Origin: Arthrobacter sp. FW306-07-I
GTDB lineage: Bacteria; Actinomycetota; Actinomycetes; Actinomycetales; Micrococcaceae
Length of the DNA stretch: 64,000 bases
NCBI RefSeq assembly: GCF_021800405.1
Contig: NZ_CP084550.1
Span: forward strand, 1,860,001-1,924,000
Direction of reading: 5' to 3'
Position numbers and translations under genes: made by a program. Below the pieces are notes generated by a model that was not told the DNA's origin, did not search any database, and was given only the letters and a program-made list of their open reading frames with translations. Shown piece by piece: positions 51,958 to 64,000 of this stretch (position 1 is the stretch's first letter; each line of letters begins with the position of its first letter).

Positions 51958-52113
51958 GGGATCTCCTTGAAAAGGTACGGCGGGACATCACTATCTTAGG
52001 TGCCACCGCGGCTGTACTTGGCTTGCAGGGGTTCGGTTGCGGCGACGGCGGCGCGATTCTGGAATTCAGCCTATCTGCATGTAGAGTAATTCCGCGTACG
52101 TGAAGCGATCGCG

Positions 52114-52142
52114 TTGCTCACAGTCAGCTGTGGGCGTACTTT
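52114..52142 (+). promoter_or_regulatory. Promoter of tRNA-Leu(CAA)
   Basis: -35 TTGCTC (52114-52119), 17-base spacer, -10 TACTTT (52137-52142), 17 bases before the mature tRNA. Confidence 0.6.
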
Positions 52143-52159
52143 CGCTCCTCGTATTCCGC

Positions 52160-52241
52160 GCCCGAGTGGCGGAATTGGCAGACGCGCCGCACTCAAAATG
52201 CGGTATCGAAAGGTGTGTGGGTTCGAGTCCCACCTCGGGCA
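52160..52241 (+). tRNA. tRNA-Leu (anticodon CAA)
   Basis: 82 bases with a long variable arm. Acceptor GCCCGAG/CTCGGGC, anticodon stem CCGCA/TGCGG around CTCAAAA, T loop TTCGAGT. It is followed within 90 bases by an integrase gene, so its 3' end is the probable attachment site of an integrated element. Confidence 0.95.
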
Positions 52242-52279
52242 CAGTGTTTCCGCAGGTCAAGCGCCTGTTGAGCGATTGA

Positions 52280-52309
52280 GTGTGTACAAAAACCGCCAAA
52301 GTGTGTACA
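52280..52309 (+). repeat. Direct repeats between tRNA-Leu and the integrase
   Basis: GTGTGTACA at 52280-52288 and 52301-52309, starts 21 bases apart (two helix turns), with a further GTGTGTG near 52325. Candidate integrase/excisionase arm sites or an autoregulatory operator. Confidence 0.5.
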
Positions 52310-52328
52310 CGAGCGTACCGTTTTGTGT

Positions 52329-53462
52329 GTGGCAAGCATCAGTACTCGCACCAAAAAGGACGGTTCAAAGTCCTTCATGGTGCGCTGGCGGGACCCTAAG
52401 ACCAAAACCGCCCAAGGCCTCACGGTTGCTACAGTCACCGAAGCTGAGACCCTCAAGCGGCTGCTTGACGCCAACGGACAATCGTTTGAGATCGCCCAGC
52501 ACGCCATCCTCACCAACGAGAAACGTCCGCCTACCGTGGCAGAAGTCATCCAAGAACACATCGATCTGCTGGTCCGCCCTTCGAGCGGAACCATCAAGAC
52601 GTATCAAACCATGCTTGATCTCCACATCCGGCCGGTCATCGGTCACGTTCCCGTGGACAAGGTCGACTATCGCGTCATTGCGCACTGGGTGAAGTCAATG
52701 ATGGCCAAAGGCAAGGCACCAAAGACGATCCATAACATCCATGGCCTCATTTCGGCCTCGATGAATACGGCGGAGATGCTCGGCTACATCACCCGAAACC
52801 CCTGCCGGGGCGTGCAGCTGCCGAACATCGAGAAGGCCGAGGATGAGGCCATGTTCCTGACCCATGCCGAGTACCGGCTCATCATGGAGGGGATGGGGGA
52901 GCGGTACAAGGCCTTCACTGACTTCCTGGTCATGACCGGCACGCGTTTTGGAGAAGCCACTGCACTGACTGTTGCGGACGTGGACCTGCTTTCCAAGCCA
53001 CCGACTGCCCGCATCAACAAAGCGTGGAAACGGGATGGGCAGAACCAGTTTTACGTTGGCGCGACAAAGACCGGTGCCGGCAAGAGGACCATCGGGCTGA
53101 ACCCGGCTCTGGTGGAGCTGCTGATTCCGCTGGTGGCAAGCAGGCCAGGTAAGGAACTGGTGTTCACGACGCCCAAGGGCGGCCGGATCGTCCATAAACT
53201 CTTCTGGGCTGACTACTGGGTGCCTGCCGTTCGCACGGCCCAGGCAATTGGCATGACTAAGAACCCAAGGATTCACGACCTTCGCCACACCCACGCGTCC
53301 TGGCTCATCCAGGACGGCGTGCCATTGTTTACCATTTCCCGCCGGCTCAGGCACGCATCCACGAAGACGACTGAGCAGGTGTACGGTCACCTGATGCCCG
53401 AGGCATTGCAGGTGGGCGCTGACGCAACTGAGGGTTCGGTGACAGCTTTTCAGCGTCTTTAG
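52329..53462 (+). CDS. int: Tyrosine-type site-specific integrase
   Basis: 377 residues from GTG at 52329; a TTG two codons earlier is possible. The N-terminal AP2-like arm-binding region starts ISTRTKKDGSKSFMVRWRD. The SAM-like core-binding domain is about 75-160. The catalytic domain has Arg in MTGTRFGEATAL, HDLRHTHASWL, LRHASTKTT and the nucleophile Tyr in EQVYGHLMP. All catalytic residues are intact. It inserts or excises a phage or genomic island at the adjacent tRNA-Leu gene. No second copy of the tRNA 3' end is visible before the window ends. Confidence 0.92.
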   Translation: MASISTRTKKDGSKSFMVRWRDPKTKTAQGLTVATVTEAETLKRLLDANGQSFEIAQHAILTNEKRPPTVAEVIQEHIDLLVRPSSGTIKTYQTMLDLHIRPVIGHVPVDKVDYRVIAHWVKSMMAKGKAPKTIHNIHGLISASMNTAEMLGYITRNPCRGVQLPNIEKAEDEAMFLTHAEYRLIMEGMGERYKAFTDFLVMTGTRFGEATALTVADVDLLSKPPTARINKAWKRDGQNQFYVGATKTGAGKRTIGLNPALVELLIPLVASRPGKELVFTTPKGGRIVHKLFWADYWVPAVRTAQAIGMTKNPRIHDLRHTHASWLIQDGVPLFTISRRLRHASTKTTEQVYGHLMPEALQVGADATEGSVTAFQRL

Positions 53463-53501
53463 CTCGTATTTCGTCGGCTCTCTCAGCGGCCGGTTTCGGT
53501 C

Positions 53502-53837
53502 ATGTTGGTTAGTATGGCAGCACGCATGGACCTGAGAAACCTGCACTTTTCTCTGGAGGACGCCGTGGACATCGAGTTTTTTGAGCCTGCCGAAGCAGCA
53601 GCGCTTATGCGCTGCACGGAGTCCTGGCTGCGCGACGGTGCGACCAGCGGACGCTTCCCTCACGCGTGCTGGGGGAAGGGAAAGATCATCTTTACCTCGG
53701 AACACATCCTGGAGATCGCCAAGTTGAGCGAAATTCTTCCCGGCAAGACTAGTTCTCAGCTTCCCGAAAGCCAGCTGCTGAATAAGCAGCGGCTCATCGG
53801 GACACGGTCGAAGGCCAGATTGTCGCCTGTGAGCTGA
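53502..53837 (+). CDS. Small helix-turn-helix (excisionase-like) protein
   Basis: 111 residues from the ATG at 53502; starts at 53514 or 53526 are also possible. Residues about 25-80 (FFEPAEAAALMRCTESWLRD, then FPHACWGKGKIIFTSEHI) fit the MerR/excisionase-type winged helix HTH_17. Its position 39 bases after an integrase fits a directionality factor or element regulator. The C-terminal 30 residues are polar. No strong ribosome binding site is seen. Not a confident excisionase call. Confidence 0.6.
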   Translation: MLVSMAARMDLRNLHFSLEDAVDIEFFEPAEAAALMRCTESWLRDGATSGRFPHACWGKGKIIFTSEHILEIAKLSEILPGKTSSQLPESQLLNKQRLIGTRSKARLSPVS

Positions 53838-53930
53838 GCAAGGGTTACAACCGCCCCCCACGCTGGTGCTGACAACACGCTTTTCAGGCTAAATGTGATT
53901 CGGACCTCGCAAAGTGGGAGGACCACTGAA

Positions 53931-54395
53931 ATGGTTCGTTCCATCGCTCAATCACTGGCGGCCGTCGCTACTCTTCTTATGGCTGGCCCCCTCGCTGGTT
54001 GTAACTCTGCAGCCGACTCCATCAAATCCATGGAGTCTGCCCCAGGCGTCGCAGCAGATGCACCATGTCTGACGTCCGCCGGCGACGCTGCGAAGGCCCT
54101 TGCCCAGCTGGAGTATATTCCGGTGAAAGGGCGCGCTACGAAGACCGGCTATACGCGGAATGAGTTCGGACCCATCTGGGCCTACGTCGACCATAACGGC
54201 TGCGACACCCGCAACGACATCCTCGCCCGCGATCTGGTAGGCGAAATGTTCAAGGCCGGCACCAATAACTGCGTGGTGGCCGCAGGAGTCCTGGCTGACA
54301 AGTACACCGGTACAACCATCAGGTTTGCCGCTCTATTTCTATATCAACGAGTTCCTGGATCGACGCTGCTTCAGCATGATCGTTTTTGTGAATGA
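53931..54395 (+). pseudogene. Truncated secreted HNH-nuclease-family lipoprotein
   Basis: 154 residues with a lipoprotein signal (AVATLLMAGPLAGC, lipobox LAGC). A mature part follows with PVKGRATKTGYTRNEF, WAYVDHNGCDTRNDILARDL and AGVLADKYTGTTI. This is the N-terminal half of the secreted DUF1524/GmrSD-C-type HNH family. In intact members an I-D-H-V-V-A-L-S motif carrying the catalytic His follows about 15 residues after YTGTTI. Here the frame changes to unrelated sequence and stops. The active site is therefore missing. GGGAGG precedes the ATG. Confidence 0.65.
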
Positions 54396-54612
54396 CGGGA
54401 GTGTCGATGGCGCCCCTGTCGGGCGGCCCAAACAAGTTCATGATCAGTCGCTCTATCGAATGTGTGAACTTCTCCGTGAGGTGCGAACTTCCGATGTCAG
54501 GCATTTCTTAGTCCTCGCTTTCGCGTCTCCGATATCCAGGCTGCCACCCCTGCAGCCGATGCGTGAGGGATAGCTCGTCATGCTGGGTGTTTCAGCTTCG
54601 CCTCTGACTGAG
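54396..54612. other. Apparent junction/remnant sequence without a clear gene
   Basis: AT-richer than the surroundings. An 82-codon plus-strand frame (54325-54573, with YFYINEFLDRRCFSMIVF) overlaps the HNH fragment but matches no family I know. It may be debris from the event that truncated the nuclease gene. Confidence 0.35.
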
Positions 54613-55068
54613 TCATCCGAACCATCTGGAGGGGCCCTGTTGGGTCTGTCTGGCCGGACCTGCTGATAGCGGACGCGCACTTGTGTGGTCCCTGAAGAGG
54701 GCAGTTGCTGCGCACTGCCGGGCATTATGGATGGCGGCGATTGCTGCATTCTTATCCGAAAACGCTCCTGACACGGCTAGGACATCCCCGGCGGGGGAGA
54801 GCAACCTGAATCTAAAATCCCCGGGGCCTGTTACCAAGAGCTCGAATATTCCCGCCATGGCTTGCCTCGTGGCTGAGGGAAGTGCTGGGCCGAATAACAC
54901 GGCAGAAGCGGCTGGATGCGGCTCGAGGTCTGATGGTTCAGGGAACTGGTCAGCGCCTTCGGCCGGGTCCTGGGAGTGGGAGCGTATCTCGGGAAAATCC
55001 CGGGAATTATCTCCTTCAGCCGGAGCCTCACTGTGCATCCGCGTGTTGTCCATGCTTGGTGTGCCCAT
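54613..55068 (-). CDS. YegP family (DUF1508) protein
   Basis: 151 residues from the ATG giving MGTPSMDNTRMH. The C-terminal part (about 75-135) with GIFELLVTGPGDFRFRLLSP, AVSGAFSDKNAAIAAIHNAR is a single DUF1508 repeat; YegP has two. The N-terminal 70 residues are acidic, Pro/Ser-rich and probably disordered. Function is unknown; family members are often stress-induced. A 32-base tandem duplication lies in the upstream region. GAGG stands nine bases before the start. Confidence 0.75.
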   Translation of the reverse strand: MGTPSMDNTRMHSEAPAEGDNSRDFPEIRSHSQDPAEGADQFPEPSDLEPHPAASAVLFGPALPSATRQAMAGIFELLVTGPGDFRFRLLSPAGDVLAVSGAFSDKNAAIAAIHNARQCAATALFRDHTSARPLSAGPARQTQQGPSRWFG

Positions 55069-55088
55069 TATGGAGCCTCTTTTCTCTG

Positions 55089-55152
55089 TACTGCCTTCTA
55101 CTACCGACGGTCCCACTAAGTACTGCCTTCTACTACCGACGGTCCCACTAAG
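55089..55152. repeat. Perfect 2 x 32-base tandem repeat
   Basis: The unit TACTGCCTTCTACTACCGAC plus 12 further bases (GGTCCCACTAAG) occurs twice without a mismatch at 55089-55120 and 55121-55152. It lies in the upstream region of the YegP-like gene, about 20 bases before its start. A recent duplication. Confidence 0.9.
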
Positions 55153-55186
55153 GAAACAGCGTCCACTGCCTTTCCCGGTGTGTTGA

Positions 55187-55480
55187 TCAGAGTAGGGGCA
55201 ACAGGTGATCAGGCAGATCAGGTTCATCCCCCACGAAGAAATAGGCAGCTGTTCCTATCAGCAGCAAGCCCATGACACCTACTTCGACGGCTTGGCATGC
55301 AATGGCCGTGATGAGCAGGACAACGCCGGTCAGGCAGGCCACCGCGGCGAAGTATGACGTGGCCCCGAACGGGCTTTCGATCAGACCGGTGGATAGTTCC
55401 TTGGCCAGATGCGGGTCCTTGGTCACCAGGTCCAGTTCCAGCTCGTCCAGGAGTTTCTGCTCTTTATCTGACAACGGCAT
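55187..55480 (-). CDS. DUF3040 family small membrane protein
   Basis: 97 residues starting MPLSDKEQKLLDELELDL, the typical DUF3040 opening, followed by two adjacent membrane helices (about 43-62 and 66-83) and an acidic C-terminus (GDEPDLPDHLLPLL). Members are common in actinobacteria, often near division genes or stress genes; their role is unknown. The GAGG site precedes the ATG (GGGAGGTTTCAG). A perfect palindrome lies about 90 bases upstream. Confidence 0.8.
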   Translation of the reverse strand: MPLSDKEQKLLDELELDLVTKDPHLAKELSTGLIESPFGATSYFAAVACLTGVVLLITAIACQAVEVGVMGLLLIGTAAYFFVGDEPDLPDHLLPLL

Positions 55481-55567
55481 CTGAAACCTCCCGTGATACC
55501 GCTGCTGCCGTTTCAGGGCTTGCAGCTGGAGCCTCCGAGTAGCTCTCCGCTGCCGGAGGATTCTAAT

Positions 55568-55586
55568 CTAACATTTCAAATGTTAG
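55568..55586. promoter_or_regulatory. Perfect 19-base palindrome (operator) upstream of DUF3040
   Basis: CTAACATTT-C-AAATGTTAG in an AT-rich patch, next to a TAGAAT -10-like hexamer (minus strand, 55560-55565). It has the geometry of a MarR- or TetR-type operator. Confidence 0.5.
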
Positions 55587-55679
55587 TAATTTGACCATAG
55601 GAGCGTTCCTGGGGGAAGTCAAGGAATACCCTCCAAACAGGGGGGGCAGGGTAGGCCCGGTCCCTGTCGAGGCTGAGGG

Positions 55680-56048
55680 TCAGGGCTGCAGGTCTCCGGC
55701 GATGAGGGCGCAGAGCACGGCGGCTTCGCTGATGCCGGGTTCCTTTGTCGCCGTCAGCAGGGTTAGCGGGCCGTGGTCGGCCAATCCCTGGAGGTGTTTA
55801 AGGGCATCAGCAGCTTCGGATGTTTGGAGTTCGGCCAGGTACCGCTGGCTGAACTCCTCAAAACGCCGAGGGTCATGGCCGTACCACCTGCGCAGCTCAT
55901 CTGATGGGGCCACCGCGTTGCACCATTCGTCCAGATGCGCCTTTCCCTTGCTCATACCCCGTGGCCAGAGGCGATCTACGAGGATACGGGCTCCATCTGT
56001 GTCCAGGGGTTCCTCATAGATGCGCCGTACTTTCACTTGTCGGGTCAT
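55680..56048 (-). CDS. DUF488 family protein
   Basis: 122 residues starting MTRQVKVRRIYEEPLDTDGA, with ILVDRLWPRGMSKGKAHLDEW, YGHDPRRFEEFSQRY and LTLLTATKEPGISEA, all typical of DUF488 (YeaO-like). The function is unknown; structures suggest a nucleotide-processing alpha/beta fold. It lies 64 bases after the GH15 gene stop in the same orientation. Confidence 0.85.
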   Translation of the reverse strand: MTRQVKVRRIYEEPLDTDGARILVDRLWPRGMSKGKAHLDEWCNAVAPSDELRRWYGHDPRRFEEFSQRYLAELQTSEAADALKHLQGLADHGPLTLLTATKEPGISEAAVLCALIAGDLQP

Positions 56049-56112
56049 CTGTATGTCTCCTTCATTGCGCAGGCTTGGCCGCTGAGATTTAGACCGTGAT
56101 GCTTTTGCTGGT

Positions 56113-57996
56113 TCAGGAAGGGCTGGGGAGGTCTCCGGGTATCTTGTCGGGGTCCCGCAGGGCGAGGGCGGCCTGGACGAGGGAGGCGTGAGTGAGTGCT
56201 TGGGGGAAGTTTCCGAGGAAGGTGCCTGTGGCAGGATCGATTTCTTCGCTGTAAAGCCCTAACGGGTTGGCGTTCTGAAGGAGTGCTTCGAAAAGTTGGC
56301 TCGCTTCCTGTCGTCTGCCGGTGAGGGCGAGGGCTTGGACGAGCCAGAATGAGCAGGGCAAGAAAGCTCCCTCCGTTCCTGGTAGCCCGTCCTTTCCTGG
56401 CGGATACCGGTAGAGGAATGGGAAGCCGGCAGAAAGCTCTTGGCTGACTGCGTCCACTGTTCCTTTCACTCGGTCAGAGCAAGGGTCCTCAAAGTCGGTG
56501 ACAGGAAGGAGCAGTATCGCAGCGTCCAGGTCGGAGGAGCCGTAGGTGCGGGTGTAGGTGTTTTTGTCCGTGTTGAAGCCCTTGGACCTGATCTCTGCTG
56601 CGAGATCCCGTTGAGCTTGTTGCCAGCGGTCCCGTTGCGTCGTCCGGAGGTGGTGGGTGCGTCCGATCCTCAGGGCCCTGTCCAGGGCCAGCCAGCCCAT
56701 CATCTTGGAGTGCACATGGTGGGCTGCGTCGTCCCGGATTTCCCAGATTCCTGCATCTGGTTCCTGCCACCGCGCTGCCACCTGGTCCGCGAAGCCACGC
56801 ATGGCCCGCCATGTCTCGGAGTAAAGGCGGTGGCCGCTTCGTACGAGGACCCAGGCGGCGTCCAGGACCCAACCGTAGCCGTCGAGCTGGTGCTGGCCTG
56901 CGGCACCATTGCCGGTGCGGACAGGGGTGCTCCCGGCAAATCCCGGCCAGTCGGGAAGCCTGCGTTCCGCCGGGACATGTCCTCCAGCAAGAGTGAGCAG
57001 CGCGGGCAGGCGGGGGCGCTCGAGCCGGCTGGCGTGCAGCATCCATCCAAAGAATTTTCTTGCTTCAGGCGTTTTCCCAACATTGAGAAACGCGCCGACT
57101 CCAATGCTGGCGTCCCTCGGCCAGGCATAGCGGTAGTCCCAATTGCGTATCCCGCCTGGGTCCTCGGGCAGTGATGTGGTGGGGGCAGCTACCGGGGCGC
57201 CGGAAGGGGAATAGGTCAGCAGTTGCAGGGTCAGCAGGCTGCGAAGAACGGCCTCCCGGAACGGTATCTCCTCATCGCTGTCCTCTGTCCACGCCTGCCA
57301 TCGTGCTTCGTCAGCTTCGACGAGGGCCCATGCTGTTGACGGATCCACGTGGATCAGGGGTTCTCCGTACGCGATGGCCATGACAAGAGTGAGAGGACTG
57401 CCAGGGTGAACTGTCACGTAGGTCGGCCGGCCTGGTTCGACGTTCAGTTCCTCACTGCATCCCAACGACAAGGCCAGGGGTCCCCAGTCACAGACGAGGC
57501 CCACTCCCCGGCGGATATGTGGGCGCCGGTGCTGTTCGCCTAGCCGCGGGTCAAAGTTTATGACCGCTGGAAAGGGGGAGCCCCTGGCGCTGAGTCGTCT
57601 GATCAGGAGCGTTGTGGGCAGAAGTTTGCCGGCGACTTCGGCGATCATGGCGTCATGGAGGATGAGCTGGCTCGCACCGGCTGACCAGACGGTTTCAAGA
57701 GTGGCGCTGTGGTGGCGGTACTTGCGGGTGCTCACCTGTGTCTGGACGGAGGGTCCGACCAGAAAGGAGCCGGCTCGGGAGCCGCCCAGGAGGGCACCAA
57801 AGACTGGCTGCCCGTCAAATGCAGGGGCGCAAAGCCAGTCCACGGAGCCGCGGGCGGATACCAAGGCGGCCGTACGGGTGTCACCGACCAGCCCGTAGTC
57901 CGCAATGCAGGAATCGTGCCATGCTCCCGTCCCGTTGGGCAGGGACTCTGCTGATTCCTTTTCGAAGGTCTCGTGCCGGTGGCGCCCAGTCATCAT
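56113..57996 (-). CDS. Glycoside hydrolase family 15 (glucoamylase / trehalase-like)
   Basis: 627 residues from the ATG at 57996. The N-terminal beta-sandwich is about 20-250. The (alpha/alpha)6 barrel follows with NWDYRYAWPRDASIGVGAF, the general acid Glu in DAGIWEIRDDAAHHVHSK and the base Glu in PLGLYSEEIDPATGTFLGN. Both catalytic acids are intact. It probably cleaves alpha-glucosidic bonds in trehalose or malto-oligosaccharides inside the cell (no signal peptide). The start is in an ATGA overlap with the stop of a small membrane protein gene. Confidence 0.88.
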   Translation of the reverse strand: MMTGRHRHETFEKESAESLPNGTGAWHDSCIADYGLVGDTRTAALVSARGSVDWLCAPAFDGQPVFGALLGGSRAGSFLVGPSVQTQVSTRKYRHHSATLETVWSAGASQLILHDAMIAEVAGKLLPTTLLIRRLSARGSPFPAVINFDPRLGEQHRRPHIRRGVGLVCDWGPLALSLGCSEELNVEPGRPTYVTVHPGSPLTLVMAIAYGEPLIHVDPSTAWALVEADEARWQAWTEDSDEEIPFREAVLRSLLTLQLLTYSPSGAPVAAPTTSLPEDPGGIRNWDYRYAWPRDASIGVGAFLNVGKTPEARKFFGWMLHASRLERPRLPALLTLAGGHVPAERRLPDWPGFAGSTPVRTGNGAAGQHQLDGYGWVLDAAWVLVRSGHRLYSETWRAMRGFADQVAARWQEPDAGIWEIRDDAAHHVHSKMMGWLALDRALRIGRTHHLRTTQRDRWQQAQRDLAAEIRSKGFNTDKNTYTRTYGSSDLDAAILLLPVTDFEDPCSDRVKGTVDAVSQELSAGFPFLYRYPPGKDGLPGTEGAFLPCSFWLVQALALTGRRQEASQLFEALLQNANPLGLYSEEIDPATGTFLGNFPQALTHASLVQAALALRDPDKIPGDLPSPS

Positions 57997-58469
57997 GTGG
58001 TCCTTAGCAGCATTCCGAGGACGGCTCCGTACACTACATGGGCGATGATCGTGATGGCGGGTGTTTGGATGCCGTAATTCAAACCAAGCAGGCCCGGGGG
58101 CTCCAGGACTGCTCTGTTGGCGGGGCCCGCCCTGGTGGAAGCCATTCGGGGGTGAACCCCTGGCAAGAGCGGCAGGATTACCGTCAGGGCTACAGCGACG
58201 TGGAGAAGTCCCAGCAGGGCCCCTGCCCACCAGGTGGCCGCACCAAGGAGCGCGAAGGCAGCTGCGTAGCCCAAAGCGAAAACCTGGCCTGCGACCAGAT
58301 GGATGAAGAACCCTGCCACCCGCGCCCGGTCCGGGTCAGGTGTCAGGAACGTGCCCAGCACGAGGGGCAGGTCCAGTCTCGTCCAGCCGGCCATCTGTGC
58401 GGAGATCATCACGACAGTCAGCACAGCCGTGGCAAGCAGCCCGAAGAGGGCCCAGCCGGACCAGTCCAT
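57993..58469 (-). CDS. Small conserved membrane protein
   Basis: 158 residues from the ATG giving MDWSGWALFGLLATAV. About four membrane helices; the signature TPDPDRARVAGFFIHLVAGQVFALGYA is shared with uncharacterised membrane proteins of actinobacteria. The frame is open up to 58580, but that extra part is Arg-rich and looks non-coding. The ATG lies one base after the TGA of a 47-codon ORF that has a good binding site, suggesting re-initiation. It is coupled to GH15 by ATGA. Confidence 0.65.
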   Translation of the reverse strand: MDWSGWALFGLLATAVLTVVMISAQMAGWTRLDLPLVLGTFLTPDPDRARVAGFFIHLVAGQVFALGYAAAFALLGAATWWAGALLGLLHVAVALTVILPLLPGVHPRMASTRAGPANRAVLEPPGLLGLNYGIQTPAITIIAHVVYGAVLGMLLRTT

Positions 58470-58470
58470 T

Positions 58471-58614
58471 TCAGTGACCGCCGGATCCGGGACGAACGAA
58501 CTGCGAAAGTGTTCCTTGCCTTGTCCGTCTTGACGGCGGCAGGAGACCCGGTCCCGGGCGGCTGCCCTGGGCGGTGGCATGCCAAAACCTGTCGGTGACT
58601 ATGCACGGGCCCAT
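58471..58614 (-). CDS. Possible 47-residue upstream ORF coupled to the membrane protein
   Basis: ATG at 58614 with AAAGGAAG six bases upstream, ending TGA-A-ATG at the start of the membrane protein gene, which has no binding site of its own. The peptide (MGPCIVTDRFWHATAQG and onward) matches nothing I know. It may serve only translational coupling. Confidence 0.3.
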   Translation of the reverse strand: MGPCIVTDRFWHATAQGSRPGPGLLPPSRRTRQGTLSQFVRPGSGGH

Positions 58615-58665
58615 GTTCGGCTTCCTTTCGTGGCTGCTCTCGGACGGTTCTTTTTTAAAGTTCGT

Positions 58666-59481
58666 CTACCGTGTGGGGTCGGTGTCGATCTCGGGGCAGT
58701 TGTCAGCGGTTGGCGCTGTTCCGGCTGACTCCTGTGATTCCCGGATCAGGTATCGGAGGAAAAGCATGTCACCACAGCGGAGCACGTGTTGAAGGTGCAT
58801 TCTTCTCGGGGGCAGGTTTTCCTGTGAACTGGCAGCGATGCGCTGGCCCGGCCCTGCTGTCAGCAGGGGACTGACCGACAGGCAGAGCTCATCGACCCGA
58901 CCTGCTTGCTGGAAGGTTCCAAACAAGTGCGGTCCTCCCTCGGAGTGGATCCGGGAATGACCGCGCCGCTCTAATTCCTTGATCAGAAGATCGACATCCA
59001 AGTGCCGCTGCCCGCAGGTGACCACGTCGGCGACCTTCTCCAACGCTTTTCTTCTTACCCGGTTGGCCTCCGCTGTAGTGATCACCAGCGGCGGCTCCTG
59101 TGCTGTGGCGAAGAAGGGCAGGCCGGGGTCAATCCGCAGGCTTCCGGAGACGACGGCAAGTGCTGGTTGGCCGCTTTTGCCTTGGCTTGTGCGCCACTGC
59201 GCACCGGCCGTTCCGATGAGATCCCCGGAGTACCCCTCCGTCCTGACCGTCCCGGCGCCGAGGAGAAGGATATCTGCCGTACGGCGTATGAGACCCATGA
59301 TGCGCCGGTCCCCGGCGTTACCCAGCCCGCCCGAGCGGCCGGCGAGTGTGGCGGCACCGTCAAGACTGGAAACAAAGTTGAAACTCACCCATGGGCTGCC
59401 GTCGGCCGGGTGCGTGTACCAGTTCAGGAGCTGGGTGTCAGTGGCACCCTTGAGAAGTCCGGGCATTATTCGGTCAATCAC
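58666..59481 (-). CDS. RibD_C / dihydrofolate-reductase-like (pyrimidine reductase family) protein
   Basis: 271 residues. It has the NADPH-dependent reductase fold of the RibD C-terminal domain without a deaminase: FVSSLDGAATLAGRSGGLGN, ADILLLGAGTVRTEGYSGD and IHSEGGPHLFGTFQQAGRVD. Such stand-alone proteins include Rv2671 of M. tuberculosis, reported to replace dihydrofolate reductase. Here it is in an ATGA overlap with folP, so reduction of a pterin is a better guess than riboflavin synthesis (a complete rib operon exists at 29-33 kb). Substrate assignment is inference. Confidence 0.8.
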   Translation of the reverse strand: MIDRIMPGLLKGATDTQLLNWYTHPADGSPWVSFNFVSSLDGAATLAGRSGGLGNAGDRRIMGLIRRTADILLLGAGTVRTEGYSGDLIGTAGAQWRTSQGKSGQPALAVVSGSLRIDPGLPFFATAQEPPLVITTAEANRVRRKALEKVADVVTCGQRHLDVDLLIKELERRGHSRIHSEGGPHLFGTFQQAGRVDELCLSVSPLLTAGPGQRIAASSQENLPPRRMHLQHVLRCGDMLFLRYLIRESQESAGTAPTADNCPEIDTDPTR

Positions 59482-60464
59482 GGCAGGTCCTCCGTGCTGC
59501 CGGGTTCCGGACTTGTCATGTTGTGGCGCAGTTCAAGGGGTTTCCGCCAACCCAGGACTGCCTCTGTCAGGTGCAGTGCCGCGACTGCAGGAGCAACGTT
59601 ATGCATTCGAAAGATCCGCGCTCCCTTCATCACGCAAATGACCGCGGCCGCCAGCGATCCTTCGACCCGCTCATTGCGGTCCTTTCCCAATGTCTCGCCG
59701 ATAAAGTCCTTGTTCGACACCGATGCCAGGACGGGGAAACCCAAAGACGTAATGTGTTCAAGGCGACGGGTGAGCTCCAGCGAATGCAGGGTATTTTTAT
59801 TCAGATCGTGCCCCGGATCAAGAAGGATTTGTTCCTCGGCGACACCAAGGGCAATTGCCTGATCGATCTTTCGTTTGAGAAAGTCCGCGACCTCAAGTGA
59901 GATGTCCCGATACCGAGGGGCAGGCCACGGTGTCCTAGGTGGGGCGAGGCTGTGCGTGATGATCAGATGGGCGTCTGAGCCGGCGATGACCGCGGCCATG
60001 TCGGGATTACTCAACCCGGAGGTGTCATTAATGGCGTTCGCACCTGCTTTGATGCTCAGCGCGGCCACCTCAGGATTGAACGTGTCGGCGGAGAGAATTA
60101 TCTCTGATTGGTGCCGGACCGCCTCGATGACAGGAAGGACACGCTCTGCTTCCTCCCGTGGCGTAAGGGGAGTACCGGGAGCGAAGGGCTGGCCGCCGAT
60201 ATCTATCCAGTCTGCTCCTGCGGCCACCGCATCCGCACACGCTTGCACGGCAGCGTCCAGATCGTAGGTCCGTCCTGCGTCATAGAAGGAATCGGGGGTT
60301 CGGTTGATAATGGCCATGAGGGCTGTTTGCCTGCGGAAGTCCAGCGTCGTGGAGCCGAATCGATGCACGGGATGGAGGAAGGTCGGGGTGTAGGCCACAT
60401 TCGGTCCCGGCTCATGGAGGGCCGCTTCCGGGTTGTCTCCAACCAAGGGTTTAGCGGACCTCAT
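59478..60464 (-). CDS. folP2: Dihydropteroate synthase paralog, FolP2 type
   Basis: 328 residues, TIM barrel. MAIINRTPDSFYDAG, INDTSGLSNPDM, LDPGHDLNKNTLHSLEL, SNKDFIGETLGKDRNER and GARIFRMHNV follow the dihydropteroate synthase order. The loop that reads G-E-S-T-R-P-G in true synthases is GGQPFAPG here, and the S-R-K-x-F motif is SNKDF. These changes match mycobacterial FolP2 (Rv1207), a paralog reported to lack normal activity, not FolP1. It overlaps both operon neighbours by four bases. The true reaction is unknown. Confidence 0.8.
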   Translation of the reverse strand: MRSAKPLVGDNPEAALHEPGPNVAYTPTFLHPVHRFGSTTLDFRRQTALMAIINRTPDSFYDAGRTYDLDAAVQACADAVAAGADWIDIGGQPFAPGTPLTPREEAERVLPVIEAVRHQSEIILSADTFNPEVAALSIKAGANAINDTSGLSNPDMAAVIAGSDAHLIITHSLAPPRTPWPAPRYRDISLEVADFLKRKIDQAIALGVAEEQILLDPGHDLNKNTLHSLELTRRLEHITSLGFPVLASVSNKDFIGETLGKDRNERVEGSLAAAVICVMKGARIFRMHNVAPAVAALHLTEAVLGWRKPLELRHNMTSPEPGSTEDLP

Positions 60465-61717
60465 GACAGCTCGCCGAGCGCAACGCCGGGGTCCTCGAGT
60501 TGGACTGTCTGGACTTCTTGTCCGCTGGCTATGAGGAACTTGATGTCGTCCTGGACGTCCCAGATGTTGACGTTCATCCCGGCGACCAGCCTTCCCTTGG
60601 TGGACGAAACCGGGATGAGCCAGAATGCTATGAATTTGCCTGAGGCCGGGTCACCCCTAAGAACGATTTTGGCGTTGGCGGCCAGAGCGGAGTATCCCGA
60701 GTACTCCATCCCCAGGTCGAACTGGTCTGTGTAGAAGTAGGGGACTTCCTCCAACCGAGACGGTTTACCCATCATCGTCCTCGCGGCTACCTTGCCGCTG
60801 TTGATGGCGTTGGCCCAGTGTTCGCTGCGAATGTTGCCGCCCGTAAAGGGGTGAAAGGCGTTTGCTACGTCACCTGCTGCAAGGATCCGGGGGTCGTTAG
60901 TGCGCAAGGATGGGTCTGTGAGGACGCCATTGTCGATGGTTAGCCCGGCTGCTTCTGCGAGTACCGTGTTGGGGGTAACGCCAATGGCGACGACGACCAG
61001 GTCAGCAAGCAAGTGTTCGCCCCTGTCGGTGATGACCCCAGCAGCCCGGCCGTTGCCTTCCACGATCTGCGTGACGGTGGTTTCGGTGGTGAAAACAACT
61101 CCGGCTTCCTTGTGCCGTTCCATGAAGACTGTTCCCAGTTCCGGGCCAATGGCGGCCTCCAGAGGAACTCTGCTTCTGCCTACGACCGTGACGTTAGCGC
61201 CCATGGTTCTGGCTGTCGCGGCGACTTCCATTCCGATCCAGCCCGAGCCGACCAGGATGACGTTGCATTGCTGTTGTCCTGGCTGCAGCCGGAGCAGTGC
61301 CTCTCTGAGGTGCCGGCTGTCCTCCAGGGTGCGGAGGTAGTGGACGCCCGGCAGGTCGGATCCGGGAACGTCAAGGGTGCGGGGGGATGCCCCCGTGGCC
61401 AGGAGGAGCTGGCCATATTTGATCACGGTGCCCTGTGCCAGGGTGACGGTCGACTCATCCCGATCGATGGCTACCGCCGTGGCACCTAGCAGCAGCTCTA
61501 TGTCCTGTTTGGTGTAGTCGTCCAGCGTAAATGGCAGGAGGGATGACTCGTCCTCGCGGCCTGCCAAAAAATCCTTTGACAGCGGCGGACGCAGGTAAGG
61601 ATGGTGATTTTCCTGGCAAAGGAGTGTAATCGTTCCTGTGAAGCCTTCGGCGCGGAGGGTCTGCGCCGCCGTGGCCCCGGCGAGGCCGCCGCCAATGATG
61701 ACGATGTCCCTTTTCAT
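60461..61717 (-). CDS. NAD(P)H-dependent FAD oxidoreductase, ferredoxin-reductase type
   Basis: 418 residues from the ATG giving MKRDIVIIGGGLAGATAA, with AGGAGGAG upstream. FAD motif IIGGGLAGATAA, NAD motif VILVGSGWIGMEVAATAR, second FAD motif RILAAGDVANAF, then a reductase C-terminal domain (about 325-410). It resembles rhodocoxin/putidaredoxin reductases, which feed electrons to small ferredoxins. No ferredoxin or P450 gene is nearby. It lies 49 bases after folE and overlaps folP2 by ATGA. Confidence 0.85.
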   Translation of the reverse strand: MKRDIVIIGGGLAGATAAQTLRAEGFTGTITLLCQENHHPYLRPPLSKDFLAGREDESSLLPFTLDDYTKQDIELLLGATAVAIDRDESTVTLAQGTVIKYGQLLLATGASPRTLDVPGSDLPGVHYLRTLEDSRHLREALLRLQPGQQQCNVILVGSGWIGMEVAATARTMGANVTVVGRSRVPLEAAIGPELGTVFMERHKEAGVVFTTETTVTQIVEGNGRAAGVITDRGEHLLADLVVVAIGVTPNTVLAEAAGLTIDNGVLTDPSLRTNDPRILAAGDVANAFHPFTGGNIRSEHWANAINSGKVAARTMMGKPSRLEEVPYFYTDQFDLGMEYSGYSALAANAKIVLRGDPASGKFIAFWLIPVSSTKGRLVAGMNVNIWDVQDDIKFLIASGQEVQTVQLEDPGVALGELS

Positions 61718-61766
61718 GTCTCTCTCCTCCTGCTCCCGGCCACCGGCCGCCCGGCCGCATGGCCTG

Positions 61767-62393
61767 TTATGTAAAGAAGCGGTCAATCAGGGGTCCTTGT
61801 ACGGCAAGCTCCCCCCGGAAGGCCGTGGTGGTCGTGGTTGTTCCGGCCGCCTGCACACCGCGCAGCGACATACAAAGGTGCTCCGCTTCCAGGACAACCC
61901 CCGCGCCCCGGGCGTCCAGTGTTTCCATCAGCCACTCGGCCGTCTGCACGGTCAGGCGTTCCTGGACCTGCAGGTCCCTGGCGAACATCTCCAACCCACG
62001 GGCAAGTTTTGACAGCCCGATCAACCGGCTGCCCGGGAGGTACCCGATATGGGCGACTCCCCGGAACGGCAACAAATGGTGCTCACACAGCGAATGAAAG
62101 GGGATGTCTCTCAAGATCACCAGCTCCGTGTATCCGTCGCTGTTCGGAAACGTGGTCCACGAGGTTGGACGGGGTGTGAGCAACTCGTCAAACGCCTGGG
62201 CAACCCGACGAGGAGTGTCCGCGAGATGCGGATCGGAAAGGTCTCTGCCCAGGGCGACCAGCAAATCCGCGACGGCCGCGCGGACCCCTTCCAGGTCGAC
62301 TCCGGCAGGGGCGCGCTGGTCGAGGGCCAGCCGGTCAAGGTCACCAACTGCCGCGGAATACGAATCCTGCCGTGTGGAGTACTCAGATAACAT
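61767..62393 (-). CDS. folE: GTP cyclohydrolase I
   Basis: 208 residues. It converts GTP to dihydroneopterin triphosphate. The zinc residues are in FHSLCEHHLLPFRG and EAEHLCMSLRGV; AHIGYLPGSRLIGLSKLAR and LQVQERLTVQTA are conserved throughout. The active site looks complete. The N-terminal 30 residues are a variable extension. The ATG follows AGAGGG. First gene of the pterin operon and divergent from a COG2345 regulator. The organism probably has another folE in its main folate locus, which is inference. Confidence 0.92.
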   Translation of the reverse strand: MLSEYSTRQDSYSAAVGDLDRLALDQRAPAGVDLEGVRAAVADLLVALGRDLSDPHLADTPRRVAQAFDELLTPRPTSWTTFPNSDGYTELVILRDIPFHSLCEHHLLPFRGVAHIGYLPGSRLIGLSKLARGLEMFARDLQVQERLTVQTAEWLMETLDARGAGVVLEAEHLCMSLRGVQAAGTTTTTTAFRGELAVQGPLIDRFFT

Positions 62394-62401
62394 GGCACCC
62401 T

Positions 62402-62450
62402 CTCTAAAGTCGGCTACCTTGAATTTAGAGCGTATAATTATTTCCGTCAA
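62402..62450. promoter_or_regulatory. Divergent promoter/operator of folE and its regulator
   Basis: Minus strand: -35 TTGACG (62445-62450), 17-base spacer, -10 TAAATT (62422-62427), serving folE. The inverted repeat CTCTAAA (62402-62408) / TTTAGAG (62424-62430) overlaps this -10. Plus strand: TATAAT (62433-62438) for the regulator gene. One bound protein could control both directions. Confidence 0.65.
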
Positions 62451-62478
62451 GCTCTTCCGGAGGTGATTGAATTTCCGT

Positions 62479-63144
62479 ATGAATACCTCGCAAATTAACA
62501 TCCGGAATCCGGACGTGGGATCTCTGGCCGATCCCGTGCGGCGCAATCTGTACCAGGCATTGATACGCAGCCCGGTCCCGCTCACGCGCGACCAGCTCGT
62601 AAAAATGTTGAATCTCGCGCCAAGTACCGCTTCCTTCCATCTGGAGAAGCTGGTCAAAGACGGTTTCCTCAAAACGGAAAGCAAGAAGCTCGGATCCAGA
62701 ACCGGGCCCGGCTCCGGGCGACCCAGCAAGCTCTACAGCCCGGCACTGGACGAAGTTCAGCTGTCGGTCCCGGCACGTGAATACGAACTGGCCGGCCGCC
62801 TGCTGGCCTCGGCAATCGAAACCTCCGTCGAAACCGGGGAGCCGGTGGAGAAGTCCGTTATTTCCGCCGCCTACGCTGAAGGCCTTCGGCGTGGCATGGC
62901 TGCCGGAGATCTTGAAAAGGCTCTCAGCGACAACGGGTATGAACCAGAGAGCGACGGGGAAGGGCTGGTCTTGTGTAATTGCCCGTTCCGCCGTTTGGCC
63001 AGTGACCATACCCGGCTTGTCTGCGGGCTCAGCGCCGCCCTCCTCGAGGGTGCACTCGATGGCTCTGGCGACCAGAAGCACCGCGTCGCTCCCGCTCCCG
63101 ACGGCTCGGCATGCTGCGCCCGGCTCACAACCTCGACGGAATAA
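62479..63144 (+). CDS. SufR-like (COG2345) winged-helix regulator with cysteine-rich C-terminus
   Basis: 221 residues from the ATG giving MNTSQINIRNPDVG; a GGAGGTGAT site lies just upstream, though with long spacing, and GTG/TTG starts at 62464/62467 are possible. The ArsR-like winged helix is about 12-80 (LADPVRRNLYQALI, RDQLVKMLNLAPSTASFHLE). The C-terminal domain has LCNCPFRRLA, then RLVCGLSAALLEGAL, then ACCARL. This Cys spacing resembles SufR and its relatives, which bind an Fe-S cluster. It probably senses redox or iron state and controls the divergent folE operon. Confidence 0.75.
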   Translation: MNTSQINIRNPDVGSLADPVRRNLYQALIRSPVPLTRDQLVKMLNLAPSTASFHLEKLVKDGFLKTESKKLGSRTGPGSGRPSKLYSPALDEVQLSVPAREYELAGRLLASAIETSVETGEPVEKSVISAAYAEGLRRGMAAGDLEKALSDNGYEPESDGEGLVLCNCPFRRLASDHTRLVCGLSAALLEGALDGSGDQKHRVAPAPDGSACCARLTTSTE

Positions 63145-63301
63145 TTAACTCCGCACAGCTGGCGGGAAGTGACCATCCGCAGGCCCCGTGTATGACGAGG
63201 CCGGCTGCTCTTTGCCTGAGCATGGTCACCCGCGGAAGGCCGCCGTTGGATGATTGCCGCAAATTCTGGCCAAACGTGCGTTCGGAGTCAACAATGGCTC
63301 A

Positions 63302-63715
63302 ATGGGATATCCGGCCAAACCTGCCTCGTCCGTTCTCTACGTGTCCGAACTCGACCGGTCAGTGGCCTTTTACCGCGACCTGTTTGGATGCGAAGTAACC
63401 CTCCGCTCTGCGGAGGCCGCCCTTCTCCTGGCCGCTGAGGGGTTTCAGCTGTACATCATCGAACGCGGAAAACGTGCTCAGCGCCACCCCAGCGGCCTGG
63501 GATACCACCTGCTCATGTGGGCAACGGACAACCTCCAAGACCTGAAAGCGTTAACGCAATCACTGCAGGAGACCGGGGGATACGTCAACACCCACACTGC
63601 CGGCGATGTTACGTTTGTCGAAGGACGCGACCCGGACGGCCTGCGCGTCGTCATCGCCCACCCCGACCCCGCCCAACAACCACGCTCGGTCTTCGACAGC
63701 CATCTATTCGCGTAG
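63302..63715 (+). CDS. VOC (glyoxalase/bleomycin-resistance) family protein
   Basis: 137 residues from the ATG giving MGYPAKPASSVLYVSEL. The two beta-alpha-beta-beta-beta modules are VLYVSELDRSVAFYRDLFGCEVTL and YHLLMWATDNLQDLKAL through DPDGLRVVIAH. Metal ligands expected in active glyoxalases are not obvious, so it may be a binding protein. The ribosome binding site is weak (GGAG, 14 bases away). It lies 157 bases after the COG2345 regulator in the same orientation. Confidence 0.75.
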   Translation: MGYPAKPASSVLYVSELDRSVAFYRDLFGCEVTLRSAEAALLLAAEGFQLYIIERGKRAQRHPSGLGYHLLMWATDNLQDLKALTQSLQETGGYVNTHTAGDVTFVEGRDPDGLRVVIAHPDPAQQPRSVFDSHLFA

Positions 63716-63773
63716 AGCCTAAGGGCAACGCTGGACTGTAGGCCTTTGTCGATAAAAATGCCATGATGGGGTG

Positions 63774-64000
63774 ATGGTAGCCGTGGACCCCGTTTCACAA
63801 GCCCAGGCCAATCTTAAAGAGGCTGAAAAACAGTTCAAGCATGCGCAGGAACAGTTCAAGCGCGGCGACATCCCGAAGGAGCGGCTCGATGAACTTGATC
63901 GGCTGCGCACTGTTGCTGCAGATGACCTGCGCCGCACAGTGAAAGTGTTCGGATTGCCAATACCGGATGAGGCACGATGGAGTGGGAATTTCAGGCCCGG
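63774..64000 (+). CDS. Coiled-coil-like protein, cut by the window end
   Basis: The first 75 codons of an open frame running out of the window. The segment QANLKEAEKQFKHAQEQFKR is a heptad-like, Lys/Glu/Gln-rich helix, followed by a second helix with RLDELDRLRTVAADDLRRTV and then VFGLPIPDEARWSG. No family is recognised. The start could also be the GTG at 63771. Lys/Glu codon use is less GC-biased than in the housekeeping genes. Confidence 0.55.
   Translation, partial: MVAVDPVSQAQANLKEAEKQFKHAQEQFKRGDIPKERLDELDRLRTVAADDLRRTVKVFGLPIPDEARWSGNFRP

Follow-up and report, generated by a model that had tools for sequence, protein, structure and literature searches.

The stretch of DNA analyzed here, 64,000 nucleotides from Arthrobacter sp. 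FW306-07-I (contig NZ_CP084550.1, positions 1,860,001 to 1,924,000; the window from here on), carries a packed run of four genes coding for a GTP cyclohydrolase I (FolE), an FAD/NAD(P)H reductase, a FolP2-type homologue of dihydropteroate synthase and a RibD_C reductase, with a regulator gene diverging from them (Table 1). These five genes and their coordinates had been proposed in an earlier note, and scans of the open reading frames (ORFs) with Pfam bear them out. FolE and the reductase are separated by 49 bases, and the reductase and FolP2 overlap by ATGA. The same overlap had been claimed between FolP2 and RibD_C, where it is in fact GTGA, since the RibD_C gene starts with GTG. The starts of the FolE and reductase genes were chosen, and the Pfam scans were run on the longer ORFs of both. 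A GTP_cyclohydroI domain was detected in FolE, whose translation has undamaged CEHH and HLC stretches, and we take the CEHH and cysteine stretches to be metal-site ligands. FolE passes NCBIfam subfamily models and stays below the cut-off of TIGR00063 (160.6 versus 181.6). The reductase belongs to the BphA4/CamA class by its Pyr_redox_2 and Reductase_C domains and by its PDB matches (3fg2, 1q1r, BphA4-type), as expected from its first description as ferredoxin-type, with all 25 NCBIfam models listed for it below cut-off.

Table 1. Features of the operon and of possible further members of its regulon, in window coordinates
Feature	Position	Strand	Remarks
RibD_C reductase, Rv2671-like	58666..59481	-	GTG start; Pfam RibD_C 1e-27
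FolP2-type dihydropteroate-synthase homologue	59478..60464	-	Pfam Pterin_bind 2.6e-61
FAD/NAD(P)H reductase, ferredoxin/rubredoxin reductase class	60461..61717	-	Pfam Pyr_redox_2 3.1e-68 and Reductase_C 7.7e-09
GTP cyclohydrolase I, second FolE of the genome	61767..62393	-	Pfam GTP_cyclohydroI 9.8e-55
Operator, inverted repeat CTCTAAA-N15-TTTAGAG	62402..62430	none	Promoter shared by regulator and FolE
Inferred promoter	62422..62450	-	TTGACG 62445-62450, 17-base spacer, TAAATT 62422-62427; read by eye
Divergent winged-helix regulator, SufR-like cysteines	62467 (TTG) or 62479 (ATG)..63144	+	Pfam HTH_20 1.4e-11
Possible regulon member, membrane protein weakly similar to DUF6789/DUF1440	57993..58469	-	83% identical to the L326 protein
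GH15 glucoamylase/trehalase-like, possible regulon member	56113..57996	-	Pfam Glyco_hydro_15 1.5e-61; likely start ATG 57996 by eye, ORF called from 58230
DUF3040 small membrane protein, possible regulon member	55187..55480	-	Pfam DUF3040 1.3e-15

The operon is not the organism's only folate-type set. An ordinary folE-folP-folB-folK run is located at ca. 207 to 210 kb of G000:C1, with the other of the genome's two FolE places at G000:C1:207788; folA is found at 3175639, away from the operon, and a separate RibD at 1889562 (ca. 29562 in window coordinates). Ten other RibD_C matches are weaker and include the operon gene. Pterin_bind was detected at three places, i.e., the ordinary FolP, the window FolP2 and a 1214-amino-acid frame that is probably MetH. 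The second folE/folP/folA set, for which the earlier note had asked to look elsewhere in the genome, is therefore present, and this rules out the operon as the only folate set.

FolP2 stands apart from the ordinary enzyme by score, phylogeny and residues alike. Across 197 genomes of the family, 97 places scored at least 293 bits and the next one 153, and at the level of the class (394 genomes) 24 places reached at least 268 bits with the others at 236 or less. In a tree of 83 proteins, the FolP2 types, namely the kind found in this operon and a GpgS-linked kind, share a branch (100/99) from which the 28 ordinary FolP are excluded, and within it the operon kind (96/98) and the GpgS-linked kind (100/100) are each a branch of their own. 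The latter label comes from a Tsukamurella locus (L037), whose FolP2 relative beside GpgS stood in for Rv1207, itself not a row of the tree. A former tree of 76 proteins gave the same split from ordinary FolP, with the joint branch at 100/100 and the operon kind unresolved; the second one had more ordinary FolP, and the operon kind was then a single branch. Both were midpoint-rooted, and some of their rows are long, including a haloarchaeal one. The residues N54, T56, N146, D216, S250, K252, R286 and H288 are kept in all 55 FolP2 aligned, and D127 in 51. Among the aligned residues we take N, D, N, D, K and R-x-H to hold the pterin and the diphosphate, and the loop to be on the p-aminobenzoate side. 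The loop-2 motif STRP is present in 27 of the 28 ordinary FolP and in none of the 55 FolP2, and the arginine before the catalytic lysine in 28/28 versus 3/55. The window protein has Q92-P-F-A-P and N251 where all 28 ordinary FolP have E, S, T, P and an arginine at 251. With the pterin and diphosphate residues kept and STRP and the arginine lost, we read FolP2 as a pterin-diphosphate enzyme that would use another second substrate. Its assignment to the FolP2 type is supported by both the tree and the residues. Replacement of ordinary FolP by FolP2 could be ruled out, as both occur in 54 of the 55 genomes, the exception being an assembly 82% complete.

The mycobacterial FolP2 (Rv1207 kind) is the nearest known counterpart. 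It falls in one branch with the window protein and shares the changes in loop 2 and at the arginine, and the best PDB match is DHPS 2 (dihydropteroate synthase 2) of M. tuberculosis (2vp8, 2.5e-54), by a small margin over ordinary synthases (1.2e-51). However, it occupies a separate sub-branch, and neither a FolE nor such a reductase was seen at the loci of that branch. According to PMC1971073, genes for the cell wall are found close to folP2 in high-GC Gram-positives and M. leprae folP2 gives no complementation of an Escherichia coli folP mutant; a place of FolP2 in another pathway was suggested.

The partner of FolP2 had been described as an Rv2671-type RibD_C protein, and Rv2671 is indeed the closest solved structure (1.2e-45, the next one at 1.9e-14), as it is for the GpgS-linked RibD_C; the window protein is a stand-alone RibD_C domain. 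However, the window protein scores below all three PRK14059 cut-offs of NCBIfam (182.8, 180.6 and 167.7 bits versus 226, 274 and 184), and so we call it Rv2671-like rather than a member, while a g8 relative exceeds one of them (192.2 versus 184). Rv2671 appears as a dihydrofolate reductase analogue in antifolate work (excerpt of PMC10530724), and folP2 and ribD are both treated for drug susceptibility in the accessible part of PMC7809127. A comparable association is the Helicobacter FolP fused to a flavin-dependent dihydropteroate reductase (PMC1971073, same excerpt), also a synthase-type enzyme tied to a pterin reductase. That fusion, however, serves folate reduction, whereas FolP2 in the window is partnered by a RibD_C-type protein and belongs to a second set of genes.

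Gene partners were counted by tblastn with the window proteins, because simple gene calling mis-set starts and missed FolP in some loci; diverged partners can be missed in this way. Among 80 named loci with this FolP2, the best of at least 585 confirmed ones (four of the 80 near a contig end), RibD_C directly follows FolP2 in 66, which rules out a chance neighborhood. The reductase precedes FolP2 in 24 loci, a close FolE (>55%) is found in 14 and a more distant one (39 to 46%) in 8, and the regulator in 13. The complete run, regulator and, divergently, FolE-reductase-FolP2-RibD_C, recurs in 12 loci labeled Arthrobacter, Specibacter, Leifsonia, Cryobacterium, Microbacterium, Salinibacterium and another Microbacteriaceae, so that the proposed co-occurrence in other genomes does exist. 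The most constant association is that of FolP2 with RibD_C; FolE and the reductase are optional, and the looseness of their presence agrees with a FolP2-RibD_C step at the core that these two may boost.

The same pair was found in a second setting. Of the 14 genomes searched in genus g84, which belongs to another family (f34), 9 have the order GpgS, FolP2, a 178-amino-acid gene and RibD_C, GpgS itself being visible in 8 (L187, L190, L252 to L255, L257 and L258). Three others gave no RibD_C match, G273 has RibD_C without these neighbors, and G578 has RibD_C, the small gene and GpgS with no FolP2 adjoining. Over the whole branch of the GpgS-linked kind, GpgS adjoins FolP2 in 8 of 19 loci, several of the remaining ones being short stretches. 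FolP2 is therefore tied to Rv2671-like proteins in two different gene settings; in the other searched genomes whose FolP2 place was listed, adjacency to RibD_C was absent. The 178-amino-acid protein (from L187) had no Pfam match; its predicted fold (mean predicted local distance difference test score 93.1) resembles class III extradiol dioxygenases (3vsg, E value 1.2e-06, template modeling score 0.69 on the query), which gave no clear pathway clue. Some FolP2-clade genes have other company. One (L088, G452) follows, after 22 bases, a paa run of phenylacetyl-CoA epoxidase-like genes, the last of which codes for a ferredoxin-type reductase. Others, several from Nonomuraea (L085, L036, L159, L160 and L178), have no RibD_C and precede genes of one cluster; the gene of this cluster in L036 codes for a protein with a DnaJ-homologue (DJC28) domain. 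Two loci labeled Acidobacteria and Burkholderiales (L104 and L158) carry Micrococcales-like FolP2-RibD_C genes, and their labels look wrong.

Upstream of the operon, the divergent regulator and the operator-bearing promoter that it shares with FolE were both recovered as first described, from the HTH_20 domain and the inverted repeat. The cysteine positions of the regulator (C-x13-C-x29-CC in the window) are common to all 18 distinct regulators aligned, once one blank and one duplicate row had been dropped. The available part of PMC6034842 reports that the SufR homologue of M. tuberculosis needs C203, C216 and C244. In comparison with SufR (Synechocystis SufR, Rv1460), the winged helix and the conserved cysteines are shared with similar, not equal, spacing; what differs is that here the operator is located at DoxX-like, reductase and pterin genes. 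Neither of the genome's two operator sites is at a suf operon (whole-genome scan, up to 2 mismatches). The name SufR-like thus stands as regards the fold and the cysteines, and the switching by Fe-S or redox state that was proposed along with it is kept here as a conditional step.

The operator, [CT]TCTAAA-N14-16-TTTAGA[AG], overlaps the inferred -10 box of the operon, and a TTGAC...TAAAGT arrangement recurs in four other loci (L075, L109, L111 and L125). The second of the genome's two sites, at 2900912, separates a DoxX-like gene from another regulator of this kind, with MnmA and cysteine-desulfurase-like genes next to them. In 253 non-redundant loci (2.13 Mb), the strict form occurs 33 times, 15 at FolE/reductase promoters and 18 at DoxX promoters by our own tally, versus 0 for each of 59 permuted half-sites; as these loci were chosen for such genes, the control shows specificity within them. 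At up to one mismatch, 30 sites were detected in 20 of 27 hand-picked whole genomes and none with the reversed pattern. Of these, 12 belong to the operon, 11 to DoxX and 2 to a lone reductase located between desulfurase and MnmA genes; 1 precedes a membrane protein-GH15 pair, and 4 were assigned to DUF3040 genes (two read directly, two with the same site letters). Among 30 DoxX loci, 21 have a site upstream and 27 a divergent regulator. In one of them (G007), DoxX has the site but the 7 kb read yielded no regulator; it may thus be controlled in trans by the regulator found at the operon of this genome.

Physical linkage points to the same group of genes. L118 has DoxX, FolE, reductase, FolP2 and RibD_C in a single run, and L123 has the same run with no reductase detected. 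In L291 and L292 (G051 and G023), a regulator diverges from DoxX-FolE-reductase; FolP2 and RibD_C were not in the stretch read at these loci, and FolP2 is located elsewhere in both genomes. The membrane protein-GH15 pair of L326 is preceded by the operator in G009, and the GH15 enzyme in the window is 71% identical to that of L326; the window membrane protein has no operator of its own in the window. A DUF3040 homologue comes directly after RibD_C in L070, sharing 4 bases with it, and homologues in L328 and L329 are preceded by the operator. For the window DUF3040 gene, a strong operator was rejected, only a 3-mismatch form being present at 55561. As predicted from these sites, the regulon also holds DoxX-like, DUF3040 and membrane protein/GH15 genes, beyond the five genes with which the analysis started; the operator and this wider gene set are new here. 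The DoxX-like proteins score below the Pfam DoxX cut-off, and the genome's second one, whose gene is 1.4 kb past the right end of the window and has no site, gave no Pfam match. The mycobacterial DoxX, proposed to form a membrane oxidoreductase complex with SodA and SseA (excerpt of PMC10943396), is linked to redox stress, and the proteins here are weakly of its type, with the difference that their Pfam scores miss the DoxX cut-off. Promoters of several Microbacteriaceae loci (L118, L122, L138, L142, L161, L164, L165, L169 and L173) share another block in place of the complete inverted repeat, roughly CTCTAAAA, ca. 8 bases, CTTGACA and AAGAA.

Taken together, we consider it somewhat probable that this is a small redox-stress regulon containing a second, probably non-folate, FolP2-RibD_C pterin branch. 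A regulator carrying an Fe-S cluster would cover the operon promoter, and loss or oxidation of the cluster would let the genes be expressed. FolE would then raise the flow from GTP to dihydroneopterin triphosphate, which the housekeeping FolB and FolK would convert into 6-hydroxymethyl-dihydropterin diphosphate. FolP2 would join this compound to a nucleophile other than p-aminobenzoate, and the Rv2671-like enzyme would reduce the dihydropterin product to its tetrahydro form with NADPH, the two acting in the pterin branch as FolP and FolA do in folate synthesis. The flavoprotein and the DoxX-like membrane protein may be electron-transfer clients or partners. The chain from FolE through the shared FolB and FolK to FolP2 and RibD_C is what the enzyme families predict; more conjectural are the product and its co-substrate, the route of the electrons and the signal. 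Of the pterin branch as first put forward, the second set, the FolP2 type and the Rv2671-like enzyme stand, and a non-folate product, an Fe-S or redox signal and electron supply from the flavoprotein to the pterin are predictions.

Several observations weigh against this reading. RibD_C occurs without a detected reductase in 42 of the 80 loci, and neither was found in 14 (2 of them near a contig end), including Actinoplanes, Nonomuraea and Actinomadura; in L129 and L134 the RibD_C gene is nearby on the opposite strand. Regarding the operator, 9 of the 30 DoxX loci lack it, and 7 of the 27 whole genomes have no site, among them G038 and G151, which carry a FolP2 gene and a same-genus operon type. 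The full repeat is also missing in Microbacteriaceae promoters, with a near form in L123 only. DoxX is present in 33 of 120 family genomes, several of them without FolP2, and a steady DoxX-FolP2 pair was rejected for this lack of strict co-occurrence. Finally, the NCBIfam dihydropteroate synthase model TIGR01496 accepts the window FolP2 (250.7 versus a cut-off of 162.6), and deletion of folP2 in M. tuberculosis H37Ra raises the sensitivity to sulfamethoxazole (PMC7809127, accessible part). This last effect could point to folate and is the strongest argument against a role entirely outside it.

These two last points would equally suit a stress-inducible folate bypass, in which FolE2, FolP2 and RibD_C are back-up isozymes producing ordinary tetrahydrofolate under inhibition of, or damage to, the main enzymes (e.g., by antifolates or metal loss). 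The operon enzymes also match folate steps one to one, and the description of Rv2671 as an analogue of dihydrofolate reductase is in line with it. However, STRP is absent from loop 2 of all 55 FolP2, ordinary FolP is kept in 54 of the 55 genomes, the M. leprae gene failed to complement, and there is no FolB, FolK or FolC among the four operon genes. The bypass had already been offered in the earlier note as an alternative; weakened by the loss of the loop-2 motif and the persistence of ordinary FolP, it seems unlikely to us. Less likely still is an unconjugated tetrahydropterin, i.e., a tetrahydroneopterin- or tetrahydromonapterin-like cofactor or antioxidant made by FolE and RibD_C, with FolP2 joining no second group. 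The presence of FolE and the reductase of the RibD_C type in one operon and the pterin and diphosphate residues kept in FolP2 would be compatible with it, but the constant pair is FolP2-RibD_C and FolE is optional, so the FolP2 step appears central. We regard as improbable that the set supports sulfur chemistry dependent on cysteine desulfurase and MnmA, in Fe-S or thiol repair, with the pterin genes being neighbors through it. In several Micrococcaceae, the set or its DoxX or reductase targets do adjoin MnmA and a class V aminotransferase, which was taken for a cysteine desulfurase; however, both are housekeeping genes and neither is among the neighbors shown at the window operon or at the listed Microbacteriaceae loci. 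A side branch of the flavin pathway, with RibD_C as a pyrimidine reductase and the pterin genes incidental, is very improbable: Pfam and NCBIfam place RibD_C near the RibD pyrimidine reductases, but its NCBIfam scores do not reach the cut-offs, a RibD of its own exists elsewhere in the genome, and RibD_C is tied to FolP2 in two different settings.

Going one step beyond the regulon with its FolP2-RibD_C branch, we tentatively suggest, with more doubt than confidence, that in actinobacteria a second, non-folate reduced-pterin conjugate, produced by a FolP2-RibD pathway, acts as a redox cofactor with the flavoprotein and the DoxX-type membrane protein, made on demand through the Fe-S sensor, and that mycobacterial FolP2 and Rv2671 belong to the same pathway. 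If true, it would be a new pterin cofactor in a large bacterial class. Among the titles and abstract openings of the openly licensed papers searched, no operon or pathway joining FolP2 with RibD, FolE, DoxX or a SufR-like operator was found. Two gene neighborhoods now link FolP2 to an Rv2671-like enzyme, one of them with a defined operator and a likely switch, and this makes the role of FolP2 testable with one operon. They also suggest a role for two orphan enzymes known from mycobacteria as well.

Within its own genus the operon looks like an accessory item, although it is common in the family, since a RibD_C match at 1e-10 was found in only 4 of 61 genus genomes: the source genome, G608 (complete operon), G603 (a single distant gene) and G597 (fragments). 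The broken copy in G597 (L069/L191) keeps the operator, a regulator 77% identical and short adjoining fragments of FolE and RibD_C, with GH15 adjacent; the reductase and FolP2 were not found in it. The GC content of window positions 52000 to 64000 is 58 to 63%, versus 62 to 71% in the rest; the part that contains the operon thus looks accessory. A mobile antifolate-resistance set of the Sul kind was discarded, as Sul models scored far below their cut-offs and at least 5000 plasmid records, all of those listed, had less than 60% identity. The operon stretch is flanked by an inverted repeat of the 3' part of the DUF488-like gene (55680-56048), whose other copy (L296:4319-4675) is located just to the right of the window end. 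After the regulator there is a VOC-superfamily (glyoxalase/dioxygenase) gene at 63254-63715, with weak similarity to extradiol dioxygenases only.

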